Below, one piece after another: positions 2,337 through 16,607 of a stretch of 16,607 bases of DNA (positions are counted from its first letter, which is position 1; each line of letters starts with the position of its first letter). Source of the stretch: Candidatus Raymondbacteria bacterium RIFOXYA2_FULL_49_16. Its GTDB lineage: Bacteria > Fibrobacterota > OXYB2-FULL-49-7 > XYB2-FULL-49-35. A model generated the notes under the pieces. It had not been told where the DNA came from and did no database searches. It saw only the letters and a list, made by a program, of their open reading frames with translations. The stretch covers positions 1 through 16,607 of the forward strand of contig MFYT01000052.1 in the NCBI GenBank assembly GCA_001789205.1. Reading direction: 5' to 3'. Both the position numbers and the translations under genes were made by a program.

Positions 2337-2978
2337 TTAAATAATGACGCTGGCAGTGAGGGATTTTCTGAGTTTTTCGAGGTAATCTTCCATCTTAAAA
2401 ATGGCGTCTGTGCCAATCATCTCCCGTTTGAGGTTCACGATCCCCTTTTTTCCGAGATTTTCAAGGATTTCGCTCAGTTCTCCGATTGAGATGCTCAGGA
2501 GTTCCAGTATCCGTTGCTCAGCGTCCTGCACCTTGATGCCTTCGATGCTGTTCTCAGCGCCGTTCAACAGATAGATAAGAATGGCGCACACATTGGCCTC
2601 GTTTGCCGCGGGTACATTGAGGTTGAGCTTTTTATCAGTGGCGCGCAGCCGTTGGGCAAGCACCCGGGCAATGCCCATGAACCAGTCGGGAATGTTTTTG
2701 GTTGTCTCGCGGAAATCAGCAGCGGTTATCTGTATGGCCTTGGTCTCTTTTATTGCCACCGCGGTTGCGCTCCGCGGACCATTGTCGATGATCGACATCT
2801 CTCCGAACATGCCACCCGCGCCAACCTCGTAGAGAAGGATGTTTTTGCTGCCCACCTTCTTGTAGAGGTTGACCAGCCCTTTTTGGATAATGTAAATGTC
2901 CTTTGAGAAGTCGTTTTCCCTGAAAATGACCGTTCTTTCGGGAAAAGAAAGCGTCTTGTCCAGCTTTGTTTCATTCAT
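2337..2978 (-). CDS. Crp/Fnr-type cyclic-nucleotide-binding regulator
   Basis: The 213-residue product (ATG at 2978) has an N-terminal cyclic-nucleotide-binding fold and a C-terminal winged-helix-like domain (about 125-205). The phosphate-binding cassette GEMSIIDNGPRSATAVA (59-75) keeps the Glu (60) and Arg (69) that normally hold the cyclic nucleotide, so ligand binding is plausible. The probable DNA-contacting part is around ILELLSISIGELSEILENLGKKGI (157-180), where SIGELSEILENL resembles a recognition helix. The frame is open to a TTG at 2993, but the in-frame ATG is the more usual start. Neither has a good Shine-Dalgarno. The gene is divergent from the STAS-like/ybbR/tsaD/asd cluster and could regulate itself or that cluster; targets cannot be read from sequence. 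An Fnr-type Fe-S sensor is unlikely, since the only Cys is at 131. Confidence 0.85.
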   Translation of the reverse strand: MNETKLDKTLSFPERTVIFRENDFSKDIYIIQKGLVNLYKKVGSKNILLYEVGAGGMFGEMSIIDNGPRSATAVAIKETKAIQITAADFRETTKNIPDWFMGIARVLAQRLRATDKKLNLNVPAANEANVCAILIYLLNGAENSIEGIKVQDAEQRILELLSISIGELSEILENLGKKGIVNLKREMIGTDAIFKMEDYLEKLRKSLTASVII

Positions 2979-3088
2979 CACGATAAATATCAATATATTA
3001 CAAAGAAAATGTCAATTAATAATTCTTGCCTGCGGGAAATTTAGAATTTATATTGACACAAGATGGGGTTTTAAAAGAGGTTAGCCTT
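2979..3088. promoter_or_regulatory. Divergent intergenic region with opposed TTGACA boxes
   Basis: These 110 bp separate the minus-strand regulator gene from the plus-strand cluster. A perfect TTGACA lies on the minus strand (3015-3010) and another on the plus strand (3053-3058), each pointing at its gene. Neither has a convincing -10 hexamer at 16-18 bp: the minus one has TGATAT at spacing 17, which would leave almost no leader, and the plus one has none. AGAGG (3076-3080) precedes a GTG at 3089 by 8 nt and supports that start. This is a region likely to hold promoters, not a mapped one. Confidence 0.3.
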
Positions 3089-4189
3089 GTGATAGCTTCG
3101 TACGATACCATCATTTTGATTTCAGCCGCGGTGCTGGTGGTTGTCTCTTTTGTTGTAAACATTGTTTCAGCGTTCAAAATTTCCGGTTTTTCAGAGGAAT
3201 TGAACCGGCTCGAGGAGAACCTTGAGACCGCGGCAGCCGCGAACAGGAAAACTGATTCTTCGGTAAAATCCGGCAGCGATACCCGCACCCACATCTACGA
3301 TTCCAAAGTTTTTCCCTCTGCCGAGAAAAAACCCGGGGACAGCGGCAGCAGATACCGTCCGCCTGGTTCAACACCGGTTCCCACAGGCGAACCTGGCGGG
3401 GTAAAGCCCGAAACCACCACCATCAGATACCGGCCGCCGGGCAAGAGCGGCATGCGCATTCCCGATCAGCTTCCCGGCGAAAAGAGGGACGTGGAGAGCG
3501 CGTCCCAGCCGTATGAACAGCATCCGGCAATCATCTCATCCATGCATGCCACGGTCCCGTCCTCGTCCGAGCCTTTGCCTGACGACGCTTTTATCACCTC
3601 AGGGCCTGTGGTCAAGCCCAAGCCGCAGACGCTGGCCGGGCCCGAGCCGGAAGCCGCGGAAACGCCCGCGCCCGTTGCGCCGGCAGCCAAGGAACTTTCC
3701 CAGGACGAACTTGACCTTATTAAAAATTATCTGGGCGGTTCGTCAAAAAATGTTGTGGAAGAAAACGCCGAGGACGCGGCAAAAGACGATGGAAGCGACG
3801 AACTGATGAAGGCCGCGGGCGAGGTCGCGGCCGAGGAGGAGGCCGCTCTTCCGGGTTCTGAGGAGAGCGAGGTGCTTGATGTCATCGCTGATACCGCTTT
3901 TTTCAAAGTCGATGACATCAATCGCGCCAACGCGGTCAACCCCTTTGACTCGTCGCTCCAGAAGGTGGACTTTGAAACCGTGAGGAAACATGTCGCCACC
4001 TGCGCGCCCGGCGGACGGGTCACTATTGATTTTAAGGAAATATTGTTTCTCACGGACAACGAATTCACTTCCCTGTCGGCACTGATTTCCTCGGCGCGGG
4101 GGCACAACGTCGCCATTGGCGCGGTCAACGTGGCCGCCGACCTGAATGCCGAGCTTTTGTCCAAGTGTCCGGGGTTGCACACGGCATAG
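3089..4189 (+). CDS. Membrane-anchored protein with degenerate STAS-like C-terminal domain
   Basis: I start this gene at GTG 3089 (366 residues), 8 nt after AGAGG. The upstream in-frame TTG at 3026 lacks a ribosome site and would bury the membrane anchor. Order: membrane helix (6-29); short probable coiled coil (31-53); a long disordered Pro/Glu/Ala-rich linker (55-285) with two RYRPPG copies (88-93, 113-118) and LSQDELDLI (203-211); then about 75 residues (290-364) that look like a STAS domain, with a VTIDF strand, FLTDNEFTSLSALI and a final AADLNAELL helix. The phosphorylatable FLDSSGL motif of anti-sigma-factor antagonists reads FLTDNEF here, so Ser-phosphorylation switching is probably lost. 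With one helix the domain should face the cytoplasm. It lies 12 bp before the YbbR gene, so the two are probably co-transcribed. The STAS assignment is by pattern and moderate. Confidence 0.7.
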   Translation: MIASYDTIILISAAVLVVVSFVVNIVSAFKISGFSEELNRLEENLETAAAANRKTDSSVKSGSDTRTHIYDSKVFPSAEKKPGDSGSRYRPPGSTPVPTGEPGGVKPETTTIRYRPPGKSGMRIPDQLPGEKRDVESASQPYEQHPAIISSMHATVPSSSEPLPDDAFITSGPVVKPKPQTLAGPEPEAAETPAPVAPAAKELSQDELDLIKNYLGGSSKNVVEENAEDAAKDDGSDELMKAAGEVAAEEEAALPGSEESEVLDVIADTAFFKVDDINRANAVNPFDSSLQKVDFETVRKHVATCAPGGRVTIDFKEILFLTDNEFTSLSALISSARGHNVAIGAVNVAADLNAELLSKCPGLHTA

Positions 4190-4201
4190 AAACCACCACT
4201 C

Positions 4202-5116
4202 ATGAACAGCCTGCTCAAACCGTTCAGTCTCCGGATCATCGCCCTCCTGTGCGCGCTGCTTCTCTGGTTCTACGTGACCATGGAAAAGCGGTACGAGACC
4301 ACCCTTAATATTCCCATCAGGATGGCGAATGTCCCCCCGGCCCTTACGCCGGCCGGCGATTTTCCCGCAGTCGCCAAGGTGCTGGTCTCCGCCACCGGCA
4401 AGCGGCTTCTCATGCTCCGGTACTCCCATGTTGAGCTTTATGTCAATTGCAGCGAGGTCCGGCCGGGCCCCAACACCTTCACCCTGGCCCGAAAGAACGT
4501 CGCCATCAGCGGCGTGCCCGACGTCGATGTACAATTTGTCAAAGACCCCACGCAACTCACCGTGCCCTTTGACGCCATTGTACGAAAGGAAGTGCCGGTC
4601 ATCGCCGACAGCAAGCTGCGGTGCGCCGAGAACCGGGTCATGATCGGGGAACCGGTGCTCATTCCCGGCTCGGTGACGCTCCACGGTCCGCGCGGCAATG
4701 TGGCAAAGGTCGAGGCGTTGTACACGCGTCCCATTGAGGCGGCGCCGCTCCTGGGCGACACCTCCTTTTTTGTCTTTGTCCTTAAGCCGGAATATTACGG
4801 CATCCAGGTCATGCCCAACAAGGTGAAGGTCCGCGTTGAGGTCGAGACCATCAAGAAGCGGACCATTGCCAATATCCCGGTACGCCTGCTCGATGGGCCG
4901 GCTGGCGCCGAACTTTCCGCCCGTACCGTGTCCCTTGTCATAGCAGGGGCGGAAAAGGACGTTGACATGATAAAACCCGAACTGGTCAACGTGTTTGTCC
5001 CGTATACCCGTTTTTCGATCGAGCAGCTCGACGAAGTGGAGCCCACGGTCAGCATTATCGGCGACGTGCAATGGTCCAATCTCGATCCGCCGCGTGTCAC
5101 CTTGGTCCGGAAATAG
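4202..5116 (+). CDS. YbbR-domain membrane protein (CdaR-like)
   Basis: The 304-residue product has one N-terminal membrane helix (about residues 8-24, followed by LWFYVTMEKRYE) and then extracytoplasmic beta-rich repeats typical of YbbR domains: about 33-110, 113-200 and 205-295. Each has a 'P..V.V.v.g' start and a 'v.v.v' strand pattern. In Firmicutes the YbbR protein CdaR binds and modulates the diadenylate cyclase CdaA and is encoded next to it. No cdaA is visible here; the upstream partner is the STAS-like membrane protein. The gene starts 12 bp after that one and ends 4 bp before tsaD, so it is in the same operon. No good Shine-Dalgarno precedes the ATG, which fits translational coupling. 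The family call is fairly sure; a role in c-di-AMP control is inference. Confidence 0.85.
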   Translation: MNSLLKPFSLRIIALLCALLLWFYVTMEKRYETTLNIPIRMANVPPALTPAGDFPAVAKVLVSATGKRLLMLRYSHVELYVNCSEVRPGPNTFTLARKNVAISGVPDVDVQFVKDPTQLTVPFDAIVRKEVPVIADSKLRCAENRVMIGEPVLIPGSVTLHGPRGNVAKVEALYTRPIEAAPLLGDTSFFVFVLKPEYYGIQVMPNKVKVRVEVETIKKRTIANIPVRLLDGPAGAELSARTVSLVIAGAEKDVDMIKPELVNVFVPYTRFSIEQLDEVEPTVSIIGDVQWSNLDPPRVTLVRK

Positions 5117-7628: not shown

Positions 7629-9587
7629 ATGCGGATAGATATTGACAGAGAGCAAGTAGCAAATCTTCAATATTCCCTAAAAAAAGAGTATCTGCTCACT
7701 AATGGCAGGGGCGGCTATGCCTCGTCAACAATACTCGACTGCCATACCCGGAAATACCATGGACTGCTGGTGGTGCCGGTCGAACACCATGGAAAAACTT
7801 TCTGTCTTCTCTCCAAACTTGAAGCTTCCGTTATCATCGACAAAAAAGAGTTTAATCTTTCCACTAACAAGTTTCCAGGCGTCTATTCGCCCACGGGCCA
7901 CCAGTATGTTGAAAAGATCGTACTCGACGGTTTTCCCGAAACCACCTATAAAATCGGCGATACCATCATTGAAAAGTCCATCATCATGCCCCGGAACGAG
8001 GACACGGTCCTGGTGAAATACGCTGTGGTCTCATCCGAACACACTGTGGTGCTGAAACTCATTCCGCTTATCAATTACCGCGACTATCATACTGTCGCTG
8101 GCGAGAACATGTTTATCCGGCCGCGCACGTATTTTGAAAAAAACGGCTTCAAATTCTCTCCCTACGACGCCATGCCCTCGCTCTACATCCAGACCTCTGA
8201 AACATCGACCTTCTATCCATCGCCTACCTGGTGGAAGGCGTTTGAATACCTCAAGGAGCGCAACCGCGGCTATCCGTATCAGGAAGACCTGTTTTCGCCG
8301 GGTGTTTTTGAGCTGAAACTCGACAAGGGCGAGTCAGTGGTCATTCGCGCTTCCACATCCGCACTCGTGGGACGGATCAGCACCGAATGGAACACCGAGA
8401 CCAAGCGCATGGCCGCGCTCACAGCGCGGTTTGCCGCTGAAAAGGAGCCATTGAAGACCCTGAAAGCAAGCGGGGAGGACTATCTCATCACTGGCGCGGA
8501 CAAGACCGCGGGCGTTATAGCGGGCTATCACTGGTTTGGAGAATGGGGCCGCGACACCCTGATTTCGCTCGCCGGACTTACGCTTTGCCGGGGTGAAAAC
8601 GAAACAGCCCTCTCGATTCTCAGAAAATACGCGCGGTTTCAAAAAGACGGCCTGCTTCCCAATGTAGTGGATGGAAAAGGCAACCATGCGTACAATTCCA
8701 TTGATTCTGTTTTCTGGTTTTTCAGGGCGGTCCAGCAGTATCTCGAATTTTCCAACGATAGAAAGGGTGTTGAAAAACACCTTTTCGAACCCCTGTGCAA
8801 CATCCTCAGGGCTTATTTTGACGCAATCGTGCCTGGCGCGAGCATTGGCAAAGACGGCTTTATCTATGCGGGCGACTGCACCACACAACTCACCTGGATG
8901 GACGCCACTGTACACGGCACACCCGTTACCCCGCGGCACGGTGCGGCAATCGAGATCAACGCACTCTGGTTCAACGCGCTTTCGTTCATAATAGACACCT
9001 TTGAGAAAAAGCTCGACAATGGCCTGCTGAAAAAATGCGCGGCAGCGCGGGACGCTTTTGCCGCTGGTTTTGAGACCGCCTTTTGGAACCAGGACGAGAA
9101 CTACCTGATCGATGTTTACCGCGGCCCGCAGGATCGTGATTGCAGCATACGGCCCAATCAGCTTTTTGCCGTGGGTCTGCCCTTTACCTGCGTGGACCGC
9201 GGCACGGCGCTCAAGGTCATTCAGAAAGTGAAGGAACAACTGGTCACCCCCTTTGGCCTGCGCACGCTTTCACCCAGCGATGTGCGGTACAGTCCCGAGT
9301 ACCGGGGCGACCAAACCATGCGTGACCGCACCTACCATCAGGGCATGGTGTGGCCGTGGTTGCTCGGCATATTGTGCGATGCGCTGCTCAAAGTTCAGCC
9401 TAAGGCCGAGGTCAGGAAATATTTCATGGAGACCTTTGCCCCGCTGTGGACCACACATTTGTATGAATACGGCGCGTTTCATCTTTCGGAAATATTCACC
9501 CCCAATCCTCCCCATGTCGCCAAAGGCGCCATGGCCCAGGCTTGGAGCTGCGCTGAAACCATCAGGGCGCTCGAGTCGCTGAAGTAA
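7629..9587 (+). CDS. Glycogen debranching-type enzyme, GH133 amylo-alpha-1,6-glucosidase
   Basis: The 652-residue product has an N-terminal beta-rich domain (about 1-270, with LLTNGRGGYASST near 22-34 and RKYHGLLV near 41-48) and a C-terminal (alpha/alpha)6-type GDE_C domain (about 285-650). Family landmarks are WFGEWGRDT (302-310), NSIDSVFWFF, QLTWMDA (about 420-426, Asp425), AIEINALWFNAL, RPNQLFAVGLPF, YHQGMVWPWLLG and LSEIF near the end. The family removes alpha-1,6 branch stubs from glycogen, freeing glucose. This is the bacterial single-domain form without the GH13-like transferase half of eukaryotic debranching enzyme. No signal peptide is seen, so it is cytoplasmic. GGAGG (7619-7623) lies 5 nt before the ATG. 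It is the first gene of a four-gene operon with gaps of 32, 28 and 18 bp. Confidence 0.92.
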   Translation: MRIDIDREQVANLQYSLKKEYLLTNGRGGYASSTILDCHTRKYHGLLVVPVEHHGKTFCLLSKLEASVIIDKKEFNLSTNKFPGVYSPTGHQYVEKIVLDGFPETTYKIGDTIIEKSIIMPRNEDTVLVKYAVVSSEHTVVLKLIPLINYRDYHTVAGENMFIRPRTYFEKNGFKFSPYDAMPSLYIQTSETSTFYPSPTWWKAFEYLKERNRGYPYQEDLFSPGVFELKLDKGESVVIRASTSALVGRISTEWNTETKRMAALTARFAAEKEPLKTLKASGEDYLITGADKTAGVIAGYHWFGEWGRDTLISLAGLTLCRGENETALSILRKYARFQKDGLLPNVVDGKGNHAYNSIDSVFWFFRAVQQYLEFSNDRKGVEKHLFEPLCNILRAYFDAIVPGASIGKDGFIYAGDCTTQLTWMDATVHGTPVTPRHGAAIEINALWFNALSFIIDTFEKKLDNGLLKKCAAARDAFAAGFETAFWNQDENYLIDVYRGPQDRDCSIRPNQLFAVGLPFTCVDRGTALKVIQKVKEQLVTPFGLRTLSPSDVRYSPEYRGDQTMRDRTYHQGMVWPWLLGILCDALLKVQPKAEVRKYFMETFAPLWTTHLYEYGAFHLSEIFTPNPPHVAKGAMAQAWSCAETIRALESLK

Positions 9588-9619: not shown

Positions 9620-10915
9620 ATGAACGTTTTAATGTTCGGCTGGGAGTTTCCTCCCTTTATCAGCGGGGGGCTGGGGACCGCCTGCCACGGGATCACCGTG
9701 GGGCTCAAGCACCACAATGTCCAGGTCACCTTCGTGCTCCCCACCAAACGGAAGCAGGCGCTCGATACCGATATCAGGGTCATTGCCGCGGACGAGGTGC
9801 TGCTTTCAGACAATTTCGAGCGTATGCTCGACAAGCTGTCCCGCAAGCTTTCGGTCCAGGAGAAGCGGTTTTTCACCCTTTCGCCCTATCATACGGCCGT
9901 GCACTACAGCAGGGAGGTGTTTCAAACTGTTGATAAAACGCGACAAATCCTTGTCGAGCAGCGGCAACGGTACAGCGTCCTCGATTTTTCCGGAAACTAC
10001 GGCAAGGACCTGCACGCGGAAGTGGCGCGCTTCGGCATCATCGGCGAATTCCTGGGGATCACCGAGGAGTTCGACGTCATCCACGCGCACGACTGGCTCA
10101 CCTACCTGGCGGGCATCAACGCCAAAAAGATGAGCGGCAAGCCCCTGGTGGTGCATGTCCACGCCACCGAGTACGACCGGAGCGGCGACTGGATGAACAT
10201 GGACGTCTACAATATCGAGAAGTACGGCATGGACATGGCCGACAAGATCATCGCGGTCAGCTACTATACCAAAAACATCATCGTGAACCGGTACGGCATC
10301 CATCCCGATAAGATCGAGGTGGTCCATAACGCTGTTGATAAACAGCGCGAAACCGAGCGGTGGGGTATCAAAAAGGCGCTCAACGAGAAAATCGTCCTCT
10401 TCCTGGGCCGGGTCACCATGCAGAAGGGTCCGGACTATTTTCTCGAGACCGCCTACCGCGTGCTCAAGCAGGTCAAAAACGTGCGCTTTGTCATGGCAGG
10501 CAGCGGCGACATGCTGACCAAGATGATCTCGCGCATGGCCAGCCTCAAGATCGCGGACAAATTCCACTTCACCGGGTTCCTCAAGGGCGTTGATGTCGAA
10601 AAGATGTATGCCATGAGCGACCTGTATGTCATGCCGTCAGTATCCGAACCCTTTGGCCTCACGGCCTTCGAGGCGCTGCTGTTCGATGTGCCCATCATCA
10701 TCTCCCGGCAATCGGGCGTGTCCGAGGTGCTCAAAGATGCGGTCATGGTCGACTTCTGGGACGTGGACAAACTTGCCGACCGTATTGTCCAGCTGCTCAC
10801 CAACGAGCCCCTTGCCCGGCAGGTGGTCGAACGCTGCAAAGCCCAAATCCAGTACATTGAGTGGGAAACGGCGGGCTACCGCATCAAACAGGTTTACGAA
10901 TCCCTGATCTCGTAA
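9620..10915 (+). CDS. GT-B glycosyltransferase (GT4/GT5-like), glycogen cluster
   Basis: The 431-residue product is a GT-B retaining glycosyltransferase. The N-terminal half opens MFGWEFPPFISGGLGTACHG (5-24), the glycine-rich acceptor/donor loop seen in starch synthases and GT4 enzymes, and has HAHDWLTYLAG further on. The C-terminal half has LFLGRVTMQKGPDYF and the EX7E motif SEPFGLTAFEALL (Glu343 and Glu351), which contacts the donor sugar nucleotide. In this setting it is expected to act on alpha-glucans, as initiator, synthase or modifier. Because a separate GT3 glycogen synthase is encoded in the same operon, its exact donor and product cannot be told, so I do not name it glgA. AGGAG (9608-9612) lies 7 nt before the ATG. 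Soluble, with no membrane segment. Confidence 0.88.
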   Translation: MNVLMFGWEFPPFISGGLGTACHGITVGLKHHNVQVTFVLPTKRKQALDTDIRVIAADEVLLSDNFERMLDKLSRKLSVQEKRFFTLSPYHTAVHYSREVFQTVDKTRQILVEQRQRYSVLDFSGNYGKDLHAEVARFGIIGEFLGITEEFDVIHAHDWLTYLAGINAKKMSGKPLVVHVHATEYDRSGDWMNMDVYNIEKYGMDMADKIIAVSYYTKNIIVNRYGIHPDKIEVVHNAVDKQRETERWGIKKALNEKIVLFLGRVTMQKGPDYFLETAYRVLKQVKNVRFVMAGSGDMLTKMISRMASLKIADKFHFTGFLKGVDVEKMYAMSDLYVMPSVSEPFGLTAFEALLFDVPIIISRQSGVSEVLKDAVMVDFWDVDKLADRIVQLLTNEPLARQVVERCKAQIQYIEWETAGYRIKQVYESLIS

Positions 10916-10943: not shown

Positions 10944-12137
10944 ATGGTATCACTCTGCTTTTATTTCCAGGTCCACCAGCCTTTCAGGTTGCGGAAGAAC
11001 TACTCTTTTTTCGACATTGGGACCAACCACCTCTACGAGGACGACGCGGAAAACCGCGCCATTTGCAACAAGGTGGCGGAAAAGTGCTACATTCCCATGA
11101 ATACCCTGCTCCTCGAGCTCATCGAGCGCTACCAGGGAAAGTTCAAGGTCTCCTTCTCCATCAGCGGCTGCGCACTCGACCAGTTCGAGAAGTACAACCC
11201 CAAGGTCCTCGAACTTTTTCAGAAGCTCGCCAAGACCGGGTGCGTTGAATTTATCAACGAGACCTATTACCATTCGCTTTCCTTTATTTTTTCAAAGGAC
11301 GAATTCAAACAGCAGGCGCTCCTGCACCGCAACCGGGTGCGCGAGCTTTTCAACCAGACGCCCGCCACCTTCCGTAATACCGAGCTTATCTACAACAACG
11401 ACGTGGCCCGGTTGGTCGAGGAGTTGGGATATCGCACTATCCTCGCCGAGGGTGCGGACCAGGTGCTGGGCTGGCGCACGCCCAATTTTATGTACCAGCC
11501 TGTGGGCTGCTATAAGCTCAACCTCCTCATGAAGAACTACAAGCTTTCAGACGACATTGCCTTCCGTTTCTCAAACAGGGGCTGGGAGCAGTGGCCGCTT
11601 TCCGCTGAAAAATACGCTTCGTGGCTCCACTCTATCAGCGGCAACGGCGAACTCATCAACCTTTTCATGGACTATGAGACGTTCGGCGAACACCAGTGGG
11701 CCGACACCGGTATTTTCAACTTCATGCGCGCGCTGCCCGCCGCGGTCCTCAAGCACCCTGATTACCATTTCATTACGCCGCGCGAGGCGCACCTGCACTA
11801 CACGCCTGTGTCAAAGATCGACTGCCCCCATTTCATGTCGTGGGCCGACGTGGAGCGCGATCTCACGGCCTGGCTGGGCAACCCGCTCCAGAACTCGGCC
11901 ATTGAGATGGCCTATTCCCTCGAAAAGCGGGTGAAAAAGTCCAAAGACCCCGACCTTGTCAACGTCTGGCGCAAACTTCTCACTTCCGATCATTTCTATT
12001 ACATGTGCACCAAGTGGTTTTCTGACGGCGACGTACATAAATATTTCAATCCCTATGAGTCGCCCTACGACGCGTACGTGGTGTACATGAACATCCTGAA
12101 CGACCTTATGGAAACGCTCAAACAACGCGGCATCTAA
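10944..12137 (+). CDS. GH57 family glycoside hydrolase (alpha-amylase type)
   Basis: The 397-residue product carries the conserved GH57 regions in order: HQPF (11-14), CVEFINETYYHSL (100-112), the nucleophile in FRNTELIYNND (Glu147) and the acid/base in FMDYETFGEHQW (Asp243). All catalytic residues are present. GH57 includes alpha-amylases, 4-alpha-glucanotransferases, amylopullulanases and branching enzymes. This protein is shorter than typical GH57 branching enzymes or glucanotransferases (about 550-700 residues) and fits the short amylase-like group. No glgB is visible in the window, so a branching or transferase role cannot be excluded. No signal peptide, so intracellular. AAAGGAG (10931-10937) lies 6 nt before the ATG. 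It stands between the glycosyltransferase and the synthase-phosphorylase fusion. Confidence 0.92.
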   Translation: MVSLCFYFQVHQPFRLRKNYSFFDIGTNHLYEDDAENRAICNKVAEKCYIPMNTLLLELIERYQGKFKVSFSISGCALDQFEKYNPKVLELFQKLAKTGCVEFINETYYHSLSFIFSKDEFKQQALLHRNRVRELFNQTPATFRNTELIYNNDVARLVEELGYRTILAEGADQVLGWRTPNFMYQPVGCYKLNLLMKNYKLSDDIAFRFSNRGWEQWPLSAEKYASWLHSISGNGELINLFMDYETFGEHQWADTGIFNFMRALPAAVLKHPDYHFITPREAHLHYTPVSKIDCPHFMSWADVERDLTAWLGNPLQNSAIEMAYSLEKRVKKSKDPDLVNVWRKLLTSDHFYYMCTKWFSDGDVHKYFNPYESPYDAYVVYMNILNDLMETLKQRGI

Positions 12138-12155: not shown

Positions 12156-15100
12156 ATGAAGAACAAAAATGTTTTCCTGTATGAAGTCTCATGGGAAGTC
12201 TGCAACAAAGTGGGCGGCATCTACACCGTCATCCGCAGCAAGCTGGCCGAGACAAAAAAAGAGTTCGGCGGCAACTATATCCTCATTGGGCCGTTGCTCG
12301 ACAACAACCCCGATTTTATCGAAGAAACGGGCATAGACCTTGCCCCCATGAAACGCAAGCTCCAGGGCGCGGGCATTACCGCCCTTATTGGCAGGTGGAA
12401 CATTGAGGCGCAGCCCCGGGTCATTCTCATCAAATACAAGGACACGTTCGACCTTAACAAGATCCTGTACCAATATTGGGAGGATTTCGGCATTGATTCA
12501 ACCTCGGGCGGCTGGGACTACCAGGAGCCGGTGCTTTTCTCCACCGTTGCCGCCAAGGTGATCGAAAGCCTGAGCGATCTGCACCACGACAGCCAGGCCA
12601 TTGCCCAGTTCCACGAATGGATCGCGGGCGGCGGCGTGCTCTATCTCAAAAAAAAGGCCCCGCATATCGCCACGGTGTTCACCACCCACGCCACGGTGCT
12701 GGGCAGGGCCATGTGCGGCAACGGCGTTGATATGTACAAGGTGCTTTCCCAGATAAACACTGATTCTGAGGCCACCCGCTACCACGTGGGGGCCAAGCAC
12801 CAGCTCGAGAGCGCGGCCGCGCGCGAGGCCGACTGTTTTACCGCGGTCTCCGAGATCACGGCTCTTGAGGCCAAGCACATCCTGCATGTTGAGCCAAAGG
12901 TCATCCTGACCAACGGGTTCAATGTGGCCCATGCGCCCGACATGCAGTCGAACCGGGACTTTTTCCAGGCAAACCGCCAGCGGCTCTTTGATTTCGCCGC
13001 CCGCTTCCTTAAAAAGGACCTGCAGGCCGACAAGACCATGCTGGTTTCCACATCAGGCAGGTACGAGTTCCACAACAAAGGCATTGACCTGCTCCTCGAC
13101 GCTTTGGGCGAACTGAAAAACGCCCATGAAACCATGAACAAGGAGATGGTTGTCTTTTTCTTTGTCATGGCTGGCGCTGTGCAGACCTCAAAGGACCAGC
13201 AAAACCCCGAACGCTATGGCACGGTGTGCACGCACCTTCTGTGGGACCCGGCCAACGACCCCATCATCAACTCCTGCTACCGGCTCAACCTTATGAACGC
13301 GGCCGCGGACAAGGTGCATGTCATCTTTATTCCCGCTTTTTTGAACGGCAAGGACGGCGTTTTTAACATGGAATACTACGAGGCCTTGTCTGGCTGCGAC
13401 CTGACGGTCTATCCCTCCTATTACGAACCGTGGGGATACACGCCCCTCGAGAGCATGTCGTATTCGGTGCCCACGGTCTCGTCAGATCTCGCGGGTTTTG
13501 GCAGATGGACGCTCTCCAAGGGTTTTGAGAACGAATGTCTCAAGGTCCTGCGGCGCGCGGGCAAAAGCTACGACGAGGCCAAGACCGACCTGAAGGACTA
13601 TCTGCTCGCGTATTCCCAAATAGACGCAACGCACTATGAAAAGGCGCGGGCCGGATTGCGGGCCCTGGCCATGAACGCGGAATGGGAAGTTTTTTTCCGA
13701 AACTACATCAAGGCGTTCGAGTCAGCGCGCGGTGAATGTGAAAGCAGGCTTTTTGGGAAAAACCAGAAAGGCGACGTACGCCTCGAAGGAACGACTTTCC
13801 GCGGGGCCGACAGCCCCCGGCCGCGGTTCAGGCAGTTTTCGGTAAAGTCCTCAATCCCGAAAAAGATCGAACGGCTGCGCGATCTTGCGTACAATATCTG
13901 GTACGCATGGAACGCCGACGCCCTTGAGCTTTTCAGCATGCTCGATCCCCTGTTGTTCGAGAAAATTGGCAACAACCCCGTGGCCCTGCTCGAATTGGTC
14001 GAGCCCAAGAAGCTTGAGGAGATCGCTGACAACGAGGGCTATTTTCAGCTATACGAGAACGTGATCAAGCGGTTTGACAAATATTGCAGCAGCGCAAAGT
14101 CGCTTCTCTCAAACGGATCCGCAATCACCCCGGACCGGCCCGTGGCCTACTTTTCCATGGAATTCGGGTTCCACGAATGCCTGCCCCTCTATTCCGGCGG
14201 CCTGGGCATCCTCTCCGGCGACCATATCAAATCAGCGTCCGATGTCAATATCCCGCTAGTGGGATTCGGCCTTCTCTACAAGCACGGATATTTCAGGCAG
14301 GGCATTTCCCTCGAAGGCGAACAGAAGGTTGAGTATTTCCACAACGACTTTTTTCGCATGCCGCTCACAGAGGTGCATAAAAACGGGGAACGGGTCTCCA
14401 TTTCCATCGAATATCCGGGCCGCACGGTGTACGCCCGCATATGGCAGGCGCGCGTGGGCAGGGTCACTGTTTATTTCTTTGACACAGATGTCCAGGAAAA
14501 CAGCCCGTCCGACCGGGAGATCACGGGCAAGCTCTATGGCGGCGACAAGCGCATGCGCATTGAGCAAGAGATTCTGCTGGGCATTGGCGGAATCCGGCTT
14601 ATCGAAGAGATGAATATCTATCCGTCGGTCTACCATATCAACGAAGGCCATTCGGGCTTCCTCATCATCGAGCGCATGATCAACCTGATGAAATACAGCA
14701 ACCTCGATGTGGCCGCGGCAAAAGAGGTCATCAAGGGGAGCACCGTGTTCACCACGCATACGCCCGTGCCCGCGGGCAACGAGACCTTCGACATGGGCCT
14801 GGTGGAAACGTATTTGCGCGGGTATGTGGAACGGAACGGTCTTTCGTGGCAAGACTTCTACGAGTTTGGCCACAAGGCCGTGTCCGACGTTGGCCCCTAT
14901 GAAATGACCGTTCTGGCGCTCAAAAATACCCACCGCCGCAATGGCGTGTCCCGGCTGCACAAGCTGGTGTCGCGCAAGATGTGGATGGACCTGTGGACCG
15001 GTGTGCTCATGGAGGAAATCCCCATTGATCACATCACCAATGGCGTACATGTCGGCACCTGGCAGACCTCGGAAATCAGGAACATGCTCCTTAAATACTG

Positions 15101-16403
15101 CGCTTTTGACATGGACGAAGACCAGCTCAAGAAGGGCGAATGGGAGAAAATCAACACCATTCCCGACGAAGTGGTCTGGCAGACGCACATTGCCCTCAAG
15201 AACAAGTTGTTCAGTTATGTGAAGGAAAAGATCGCCAACAACTGGACGCGCGAGGGCGTTGATCCGTCGCTGCTCGACGGTTTTTTCGCCAATTTCACGC
15301 CCGGCCCCCTTACTATCGGGTTTGCCCGGCGTTTTGCCACCTACAAGCGGCCCACGCTTTTCATGCGCGACCTGGCGCGGCTCAAGGCCATGGTGTTGAA
15401 CAAAAAGCATCCGGTGCAGTTCATTATGGCGGGAAAGGCCCATCCAGCCGACAAAGAAGGCGCTGACCTCATTCGCCATATTGTCGAGCTCTCGAAAAAG
15501 GAGGAATTTCTCGGGAAAATAATTTTTGTCGAGGACTATGACATGCGGCTGGCGCGGCGTCTTGTGTCGGGCGTTGATGTATGGCTCAACAATCCGCGGC
15601 GTCCGCTCGAGGCCTCGGGCACCAGCGGCCAGAAGGCGGGCATAAATGGCATTGTCAATTTCTCGGTGCTCGACGGCTGGTGGGACGAAGGGTACGATGG
15701 CACCAATGGTTGGGTGATAGGCGAGCGTAAGGAGTTCAAGAACCCCGAACGCCAGGACATTGTGGACTGCGAATCGCTTTACGAAACCCTTGAAAGCGAA
15801 ATCATACCCACTTACTACTCGCGTAATTCCAATGGCGTGCCCGAGAAATGGGTGAAAAAGATGAAACGCTCGCTTATCACGGTGACCTCCGAATTCAACA
15901 CGCATCGCATGCTGCGCGACTATATGGAGCGCATGTACATTCCCACGGCCAGGAAATACGCGGCCCGCGTGCAGAACAATTTCGCCAAGGCAAAGGAGAT
16001 CGCGGAATGGAAACGGGGCATAACGGCCCGGTTCTCGAGCATCCACATCAACGCCGTTACCATCGAGGGCATCCAGGGCGACAACGTGAGCGTTAACGAC
16101 GAGATACACATATCGCTCGAGGTGAACAAGGGCAGGGTGCGGAAGGACGAGATCACCGCGCATGTGGTCATTATCCACGACAACCGGCAGGGTTCCATTG
16201 GTTATAGCGGCGCGATCAGCTTATACGACGAGGAAATCACGTACGTGCCCATGGAGGCGGTGGAGGAGAACGACACCATTATCAAATACACGGGAAATTA
16301 TACCGCTGACAAGTCCGGGAAGTTCAACTACGGCGTGCGGATCATGCCCTTCAACAGAGACGTGGAAAACCTAGTCGACCTGAATCTGGTCTACTGGGGA
16401 TAA
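12156..16403 (+). CDS. GT3 glycogen synthase fused to GT35 alpha-glucan phosphorylase
   Basis: The 1415-residue chain joins two enzymes of opposite direction. Residues 1-530 are a GT3 (eukaryote/Bacteroides-type) glycogen synthase: [20 protein letters not shown] (10-29), FHEW (152-155), [11 protein letters not shown] (174-184) and the EX7E motif EPWGYTPLE (Glu424 and Glu432). This family uses UDP-glucose. After a linker (about 530-560) comes a DUF3417-like segment (565-645), then the phosphorylase: FSMEFGFHE (666-674), [12 protein letters not shown] (679-690), HINEGHSGF (827-835), [13 protein letters not shown] (866-878) and the pyridoxal-phosphate lysine in [14 protein letters not shown] (Lys1160). 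Residues about 1295-1415 are the beta-rich tail usual in short-type GT35 enzymes. Both catalytic sets look complete, and one unbroken frame spans the junction. I see no arginine cluster like the eukaryotic glucose-6-phosphate site. AAGGAG (12143-12148) lies 7 nt before the ATG. Last gene of the operon. Confidence 0.93.
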
Positions 16404-16535
16404 TCGGTATTAAAGAGTTTCAGGTATTCGCCATACCCCTCTTTTTCCAGGTCTTCCTTGGGTATAAACCGCAGCGACGCTGAATTTATACAGTAGCGCA
16501 TACCCGTGGGAGCGGGGCCGTCGCCAAACAGATGG
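16391..16535 (-). pseudogene. msrB: 3' fragment of peptide-methionine (R)-S-oxide reductase
   Basis: About 47 native C-terminal codons of MsrB remain: [17 protein letters not shown], then [16 protein letters not shown], ending ...FNTDYPQ at the TAG 16393-16391. The catalytic Cys (RYCIN), its Asn partner, one metal/active-site His and the Asp of FGDG are present. Upstream, at 16536, the sequence switches to the edge repeat. The frame stays open through the repeat to the window edge but reads SKLTLGH, without the first His of the conserved HLGH, and lacks the rest of the domain. The gene is therefore interrupted by the repeat, or its 5' part lies beyond the window. Its 3' end overlaps the convergent fusion gene by 13 bp. 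MsrB reduces methionine-R-sulfoxide in oxidised proteins. Confidence 0.8.
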
Positions 16536-16607
16536 CCTAGCGTGAGTTTACTATAAATAAGTGATTTCTGGTTTGGTAAGCGGACCGTAGCTGATTGCAG
16601 GACAATC
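16536..16607. repeat. Right edge copy of the shared repeat
   Basis: This is the exact reverse complement of 14-85. It begins CCTAGCGTGAG immediately after the last recognisable msrB codon and runs to the window end. Both copies point outward from their gene junctions, so they are the same end of the element, not the two ends of one element. Confidence 0.75.

Follow-up and report, generated by a model that had tools for sequence, protein, structure and literature searches.

Glycogen synthase and glycogen phosphorylase are the textbook opposing pair of glycogen metabolism, held apart by regulation. Fusions of glycogen enzymes are known, and the portion of a review of prokaryotic alpha-glucan enzymes consulted here (PMC11046441) describes GlgB-MalQ in Neisseria and TreS-Mak, which likewise place two alpha-glucan-pathway enzymes in one chain but, as described there, do not join a direct synthesis/breakdown pair. 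That portion covers both GT3 and GT35 and contains no mention of a GT3-GT35 fusion, and no description of one was found in the literature searched. Among separate proteins, the closest systems are the GT3 synthases human GYS1 and yeast Gsy2, the DUF3417-type alpha-glucan/maltodextrin phosphorylases (TIGR02094; PDB 9l6i; Thermococcales type) and the Bacteroidales synthase-phosphorylase gene pair (for example, Bacteroides finegoldii UHF62_RS08950/RS08945), which has the same families, order and strand as the locus described here and includes its nearest phosphorylase relatives. In the 16,607-nucleotide stretch of DNA analysed here (the window), by contrast with all of these, a GT3 synthase is followed in the same polypeptide by a GT35 phosphorylase, so that the halves of one chain run opposing reactions. 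The novelty lies in the joining of two known families; the architecture itself is already in deposited sequence because three public metagenome-assembled genome (MAG) contigs carry the GT3-GT35 fusion.

The fused gene is an uninterrupted, ATG-initiated ORF of 1415 amino acids (12156-16403, + strand), exactly where a sequence-only reading had placed a single polypeptide of GT3 and GT35. The Pfam models named in that reading (Glycogen_syn, DUF3417 and Phosphorylase) all match, Pfam and NCBIfam domains agree and the fusion is confirmed as real. A complete GT3 glycogen synthase (residues 1-524, 12156-13727, +), identified by PF05693, by alignment to GYS1 and Gsy2 and by conservation with stand-alone Bacteroidales GT3 proteins, is followed by a fast-evolving linker of ~30 residues (525-555, 13728-13820, +) and a complete DUF3417-type alpha-glucan phosphorylase (GT35/TIGR02094; residues 556-1300, 13821-16055, +), identified by TIGR02094 and PDB 9l6i. 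DUF3417 forms the N-terminal part of the phosphorylase (residues 567-676, 13854-14183, +; PF11897, 108.7 bits versus a cut-off of 25). The remaining C-terminal region (residues 1301-1415, 16056-16400, +) aligns with most of the stand-alone DUF3417 phosphorylases compared. The arrangement of the domains cannot be read from an AlphaFold2 model of residues 1-1200, built from a four-row alignment, because its mean pLDDT is 36 and its pTM 0.32.

The GT3 half matches Pfam Glycogen_syn (PF05693) at 361.5 bits against a cut-off of 27, over residues 10-340 and a second stretch, and aligns with human GYS1 and yeast Gsy2 in a PDB comparison, sharing with them EX7E, the GRYEF-NKG motif and the overall alignment. 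Its EX7E glutamates, E424 (13425-13427, +) and E432 (13449-13451, +), align to GYS1 E510 and E518 and are invariant in eight sequences. The Arg and Lys of the GRYEFxNKG motif (R302-K308, 13059-13079, +), which are expected to act at the donor site as in GT3 enzymes generally, are conserved in 8/8 GT3 sequences, and in the alignment the half retains a 16-residue conserved stretch together with EX7E. In GYS1, glucose-6-phosphate is bound by R579, R582 and R586 (PMC9287172); the window protein has A491, Y494 and R498 at these positions and thus lacks most of this site. Eukaryote-type glucose-6-phosphate activation is unlikely because only the R586 equivalent (1/3) is retained, and this counts only against placing the protein in the regulated eukaryotic subfamily.

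The phosphorylase half matches TIGR02094 over residues 663-1262 at 806.2 bits versus a cut-off of 191.7, Pfam Phosphorylase over residues 825-1174 and PDB 9l6i at E=1.6e-202. It matches the DUF3417-type phosphorylases over their full length, including the PLP and phosphate motifs, and differs from them in being fused behind a synthase. The PLP lysine, K1160 (15633-15635, +), lies in EASGTSGQK (E1152, K1160) and is common to all aligned phosphorylases that reach the site, and the alignment also shows the phosphate-site motif RR-x3-YKR (R1058, R1059, Y1063, K1064) to be kept; the roles given to both motifs are those usual in GT35 enzymes. The catalytic residues numbered in the sequence-only reading (E424/E432 and K1160) proved correct in these alignments. 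With families far over their cut-offs and catalytic residues kept, the prediction that both halves are active is well supported by sequence.

One alternative is that one half is non-catalytic and now serves the other as a glucan-binding or regulatory module. This would fit the faster evolution of GT3 than of the phosphorylase between distant fused homologues and the replacement by His of a conserved GT3 Arg (R184 in the window's genome, G000; GYS1 R211) in the homologue L036 (6502-9204), where HATVLGR reads HSTVVGH. However, the Glu pair, GRYEF-NKG, the PLP lysine and the phosphate-site Arg/Lys are all intact in the window protein. Furthermore, a comparison of the fused homologues L034 and L035 gives dN 0.070 and dS 0.629 for GT3 (dN/dS ~0.11) and dN 0.068 and dS 0.703 for the phosphorylase (dN/dS ~0.10), indicating strong purifying selection on both halves because dN is far below dS. 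We regard a non-catalytic half as improbable. In L036, GT3 is the more divergent of the two halves, and its EPWGYT is changed to ESWGYT.

Relatives were found by scanning genome contigs with exact short peptides, a search that reaches close relatives only. Three other assemblies carry the fusion (L034, L035 and L036), with 51-74% identity per half to the window protein, as the sequence-only reading had anticipated in allowing that similar long proteins might already exist in databases. L034 and L035 are fused over their full length, with 61-62% identity to the window protein, and L036 is fused and unbroken over residues 2-901, where its contig ends. The fusion is therefore conserved in at least four genomes, including that of the window. 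Whole-genome scans covered 167 genomes from the phylum to which the window belongs and 19 from the phylum of L034 and L035: GT3 was found only in the window's own genome in the former and only in the L034 and L035 genomes (2/19) in the latter. TIGR02094-type phosphorylases in other genomes of the two scanned phyla had no accompanying fused synthase, and a scan of viral contigs gave no match.

A missed stop or frameshift at around residues 530-565 had been named as the result that would overturn the single-chain reading, and none was found. Third-position GC (GC3) is 0.69-0.82 along the whole ORF, with codon bias even across the junction. From residue 516 to residue 594 the frame contains neither a stop nor an ATG, GTG or TTG codon that could serve as a start, and the phosphorylase is therefore not readily made alone. 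Between fused homologues the linker (525-555) has 15-58% identity versus 51-88% for the flanking domains, and its dN is the highest of four segments. We exclude an artefact, in which assembly or sequencing would have merged two distinct ORFs, on the grounds of continuous GC3, unbroken fused homologues, a junction free of stops and starts, and a variable linker between conserved flanks. The occurrence of Bacteroidales homologues as separate ORFs speaks for such an artefact, but set against the same fusion in three independent assemblies it leaves the artefact a negligible probability.

In the four Bacteroidales records examined (Phocaeicola, Parabacteroides, Bacteroides and Prevotella), GT3 and phosphorylase are encoded by separate, adjacent, co-oriented genes, 27-73 nt apart and in a relative reading frame that varies by case, rather than as one polypeptide. 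The Phocaeicola match appeared fused, as a single alignment piece, but consists of two ORFs 27 nt apart that are in frame by chance. In a small tree of phosphorylases, those from the four fusions form one clade with support of 1.0, making the GT3-GT35 fusion a monophyletic group of single-chain proteins at this small sampling, and the sister of this clade in the same small sample is the Bacteroidales phosphorylases (support 0.99). The fusion thus probably arose through the joining of neighbouring genes. The simplest history would be that two adjacent genes fused once and that the fusion was then passed on by either sporadic inheritance or transfer, the sampling being too sparse to decide between these two. 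The fusion also suggests that the side-by-side Bacteroidales synthase and phosphorylase are functionally linked. On a Cupriavidus oxalaticus plasmid (L059 3813-7973), the stop of a GT5 GlgA ORF is followed immediately by a TIGR02094-like phosphorylase ORF, an independent case of synthase-phosphorylase neighbours with an ADP-glucose-type synthase.

The fusion is the last gene of a tight, co-oriented cluster with successive gaps of 32, 28 and 18 nt. The cluster begins with an archaeal-type glycogen debranching enzyme (7629-9587, +; TIGR01561 at 420.6 bits, over cut-off; GDE_N and GDE_C), followed by a GT4 glycosyltransferase (9620-10915, +; Glycos_transf_1 and Glyco_transf_5) that is distant from the structures of GlgA and maltose-1-phosphate synthase, and a GH57 glycoside hydrolase (10944-12137, +; PF03065, 252.2 bits). 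A terminator-like site, identified by pattern match only, lies between this cluster and the upstream asd gene. Gene order is identical in L036 (labelled a Fibrobacteres MAG), where GH57 and the fusion overlap by 4 nt; in L034 and L035 the fusion occurs without the debranching-GT4-GH57 neighbours. These genes also do not adjoin the Bacteroidales pair in two annotated records. Elsewhere in the window, a SelR-domain (methionine sulfoxide reductase B) gene lies downstream of the fusion (16404-16607, -) and is represented by its C-terminal part, cut by the contig end. A cyclic-nucleotide-binding domain protein, possibly a CRP-type regulator, is encoded at 2337-2993 (-), and by eye a CRP-like gene (1889-2602, -) also lies near the fused gene in L035. 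A 387-amino-acid ORF (3026-4189, +) upstream of a YbbR-like gene has no Pfam or NCBIfam match.

The genome, estimated to be 100% complete, encodes a GalU-like protein (289.7 bits, below the curated cut-off of 326.8) and no recognisable GlgC (best match 37.6 bits versus a cut-off of 424.9), so UDP-glucose is the favoured predicted donor for the synthase. Also encoded are a classical GlgP (1199 bits), a GH13 branching enzyme-like protein and a divergent GT5 synthase-like protein, and the fusion is thus not obviously the sole glycogen enzyme. In Fibrobacter species, glycogen is reported to be synthesised and degraded at the same time (PMC4432691), so running both processes together would not have to be lethal and may not even be unusual. 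That joining the two enzymes calls for dedicated futile-cycle control, as the sequence-only reading suggested, may not hold: besides this reported cycling, the Bacteroidales enzymes are neighbours and presumably co-expressed, and the junction carries no added regulatory domain. The cycling in Fibrobacter (PMC4432691) would make the fusion especially relevant if the host belongs to Fibrobacterota, as L036 makes likely.

We favour, with some confidence, a bifunctional enzyme by which one and the same glucan is both lengthened and phosphorolysed, metabolites deciding the direction. In this scheme, head-to-tail joining of two neighbouring genes would have produced a bifunctional glycogen enzyme: the GT3 half, at the N-terminus, would transfer glucose from UDP-glucose onto glycogen chain ends, and the DUF3417-type GT35 half, at the C-terminus, would release glucose from such ends as glucose-1-phosphate, via PLP. 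Both halves would act on the surface of the same glycogen particle at a fixed 1:1 stoichiometry, and a putative scaffold on the glycogen granule is plausible. The operon partners (debranching enzyme, GH57 and GT4) may remodel branches and short chains, and net direction would follow UDP-glucose versus phosphate and glucose-1-phosphate levels rather than a eukaryote-type glucose-6-phosphate arginine switch. We infer that both activities occur, and likewise the donor, the coupling of the two activities, their co-localisation and the control of futile cycling. A stronger version, in which chain ends pass between the active sites of a built-in turnover device and cycling or a sensitive metabolite-ratio switch is intrinsic to the enzyme, is improbable.

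The main rival to the bifunctional enzyme is a neutral or co-expression fusion, in which the halves act independently and joining provides only equal expression of former neighbours. A short, poorly conserved linker without an added domain is what this would predict, and in Bacteroidales adjacent separate genes suffice. Yet the fusion has been retained across divergent genomes (51-74% per half relative to the window protein) in at least two groups, and no split descendant was seen in the sampled genomes, so we consider neutrality unlikely, though it is the likeliest of the alternatives. As a conserved natural fusion, the protein offers a defined system in which to test the tolerance or use of simultaneous synthesis and breakdown. 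The cellular ratio of phosphate to glucose-1-phosphate normally lies on the breakdown side, which argues against a mainly biosynthetic phosphorylase half that elongates or trims maltodextrin primers for the GT3 half in place of glycogenin, as does the occurrence of the same genes unfused in Bacteroidales. Such a primer role would accord with the primer requirement of eukaryotic GT3, as given in the review (PMC11046441), and with the operon GH57, GT4 and debranching enzyme, families able to act on short chains, but we judge it very improbable.

An orphan piece of ~101 bp in the window's genome (G000:C23:13946-14050, -; L066 ~4947-5075) matches ~34 codons at the 3' end of the fused gene with ~80% DNA and 89% protein identity. 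The differences fall mainly at third codon positions, and the piece looks like a relic of a second, diverged copy.
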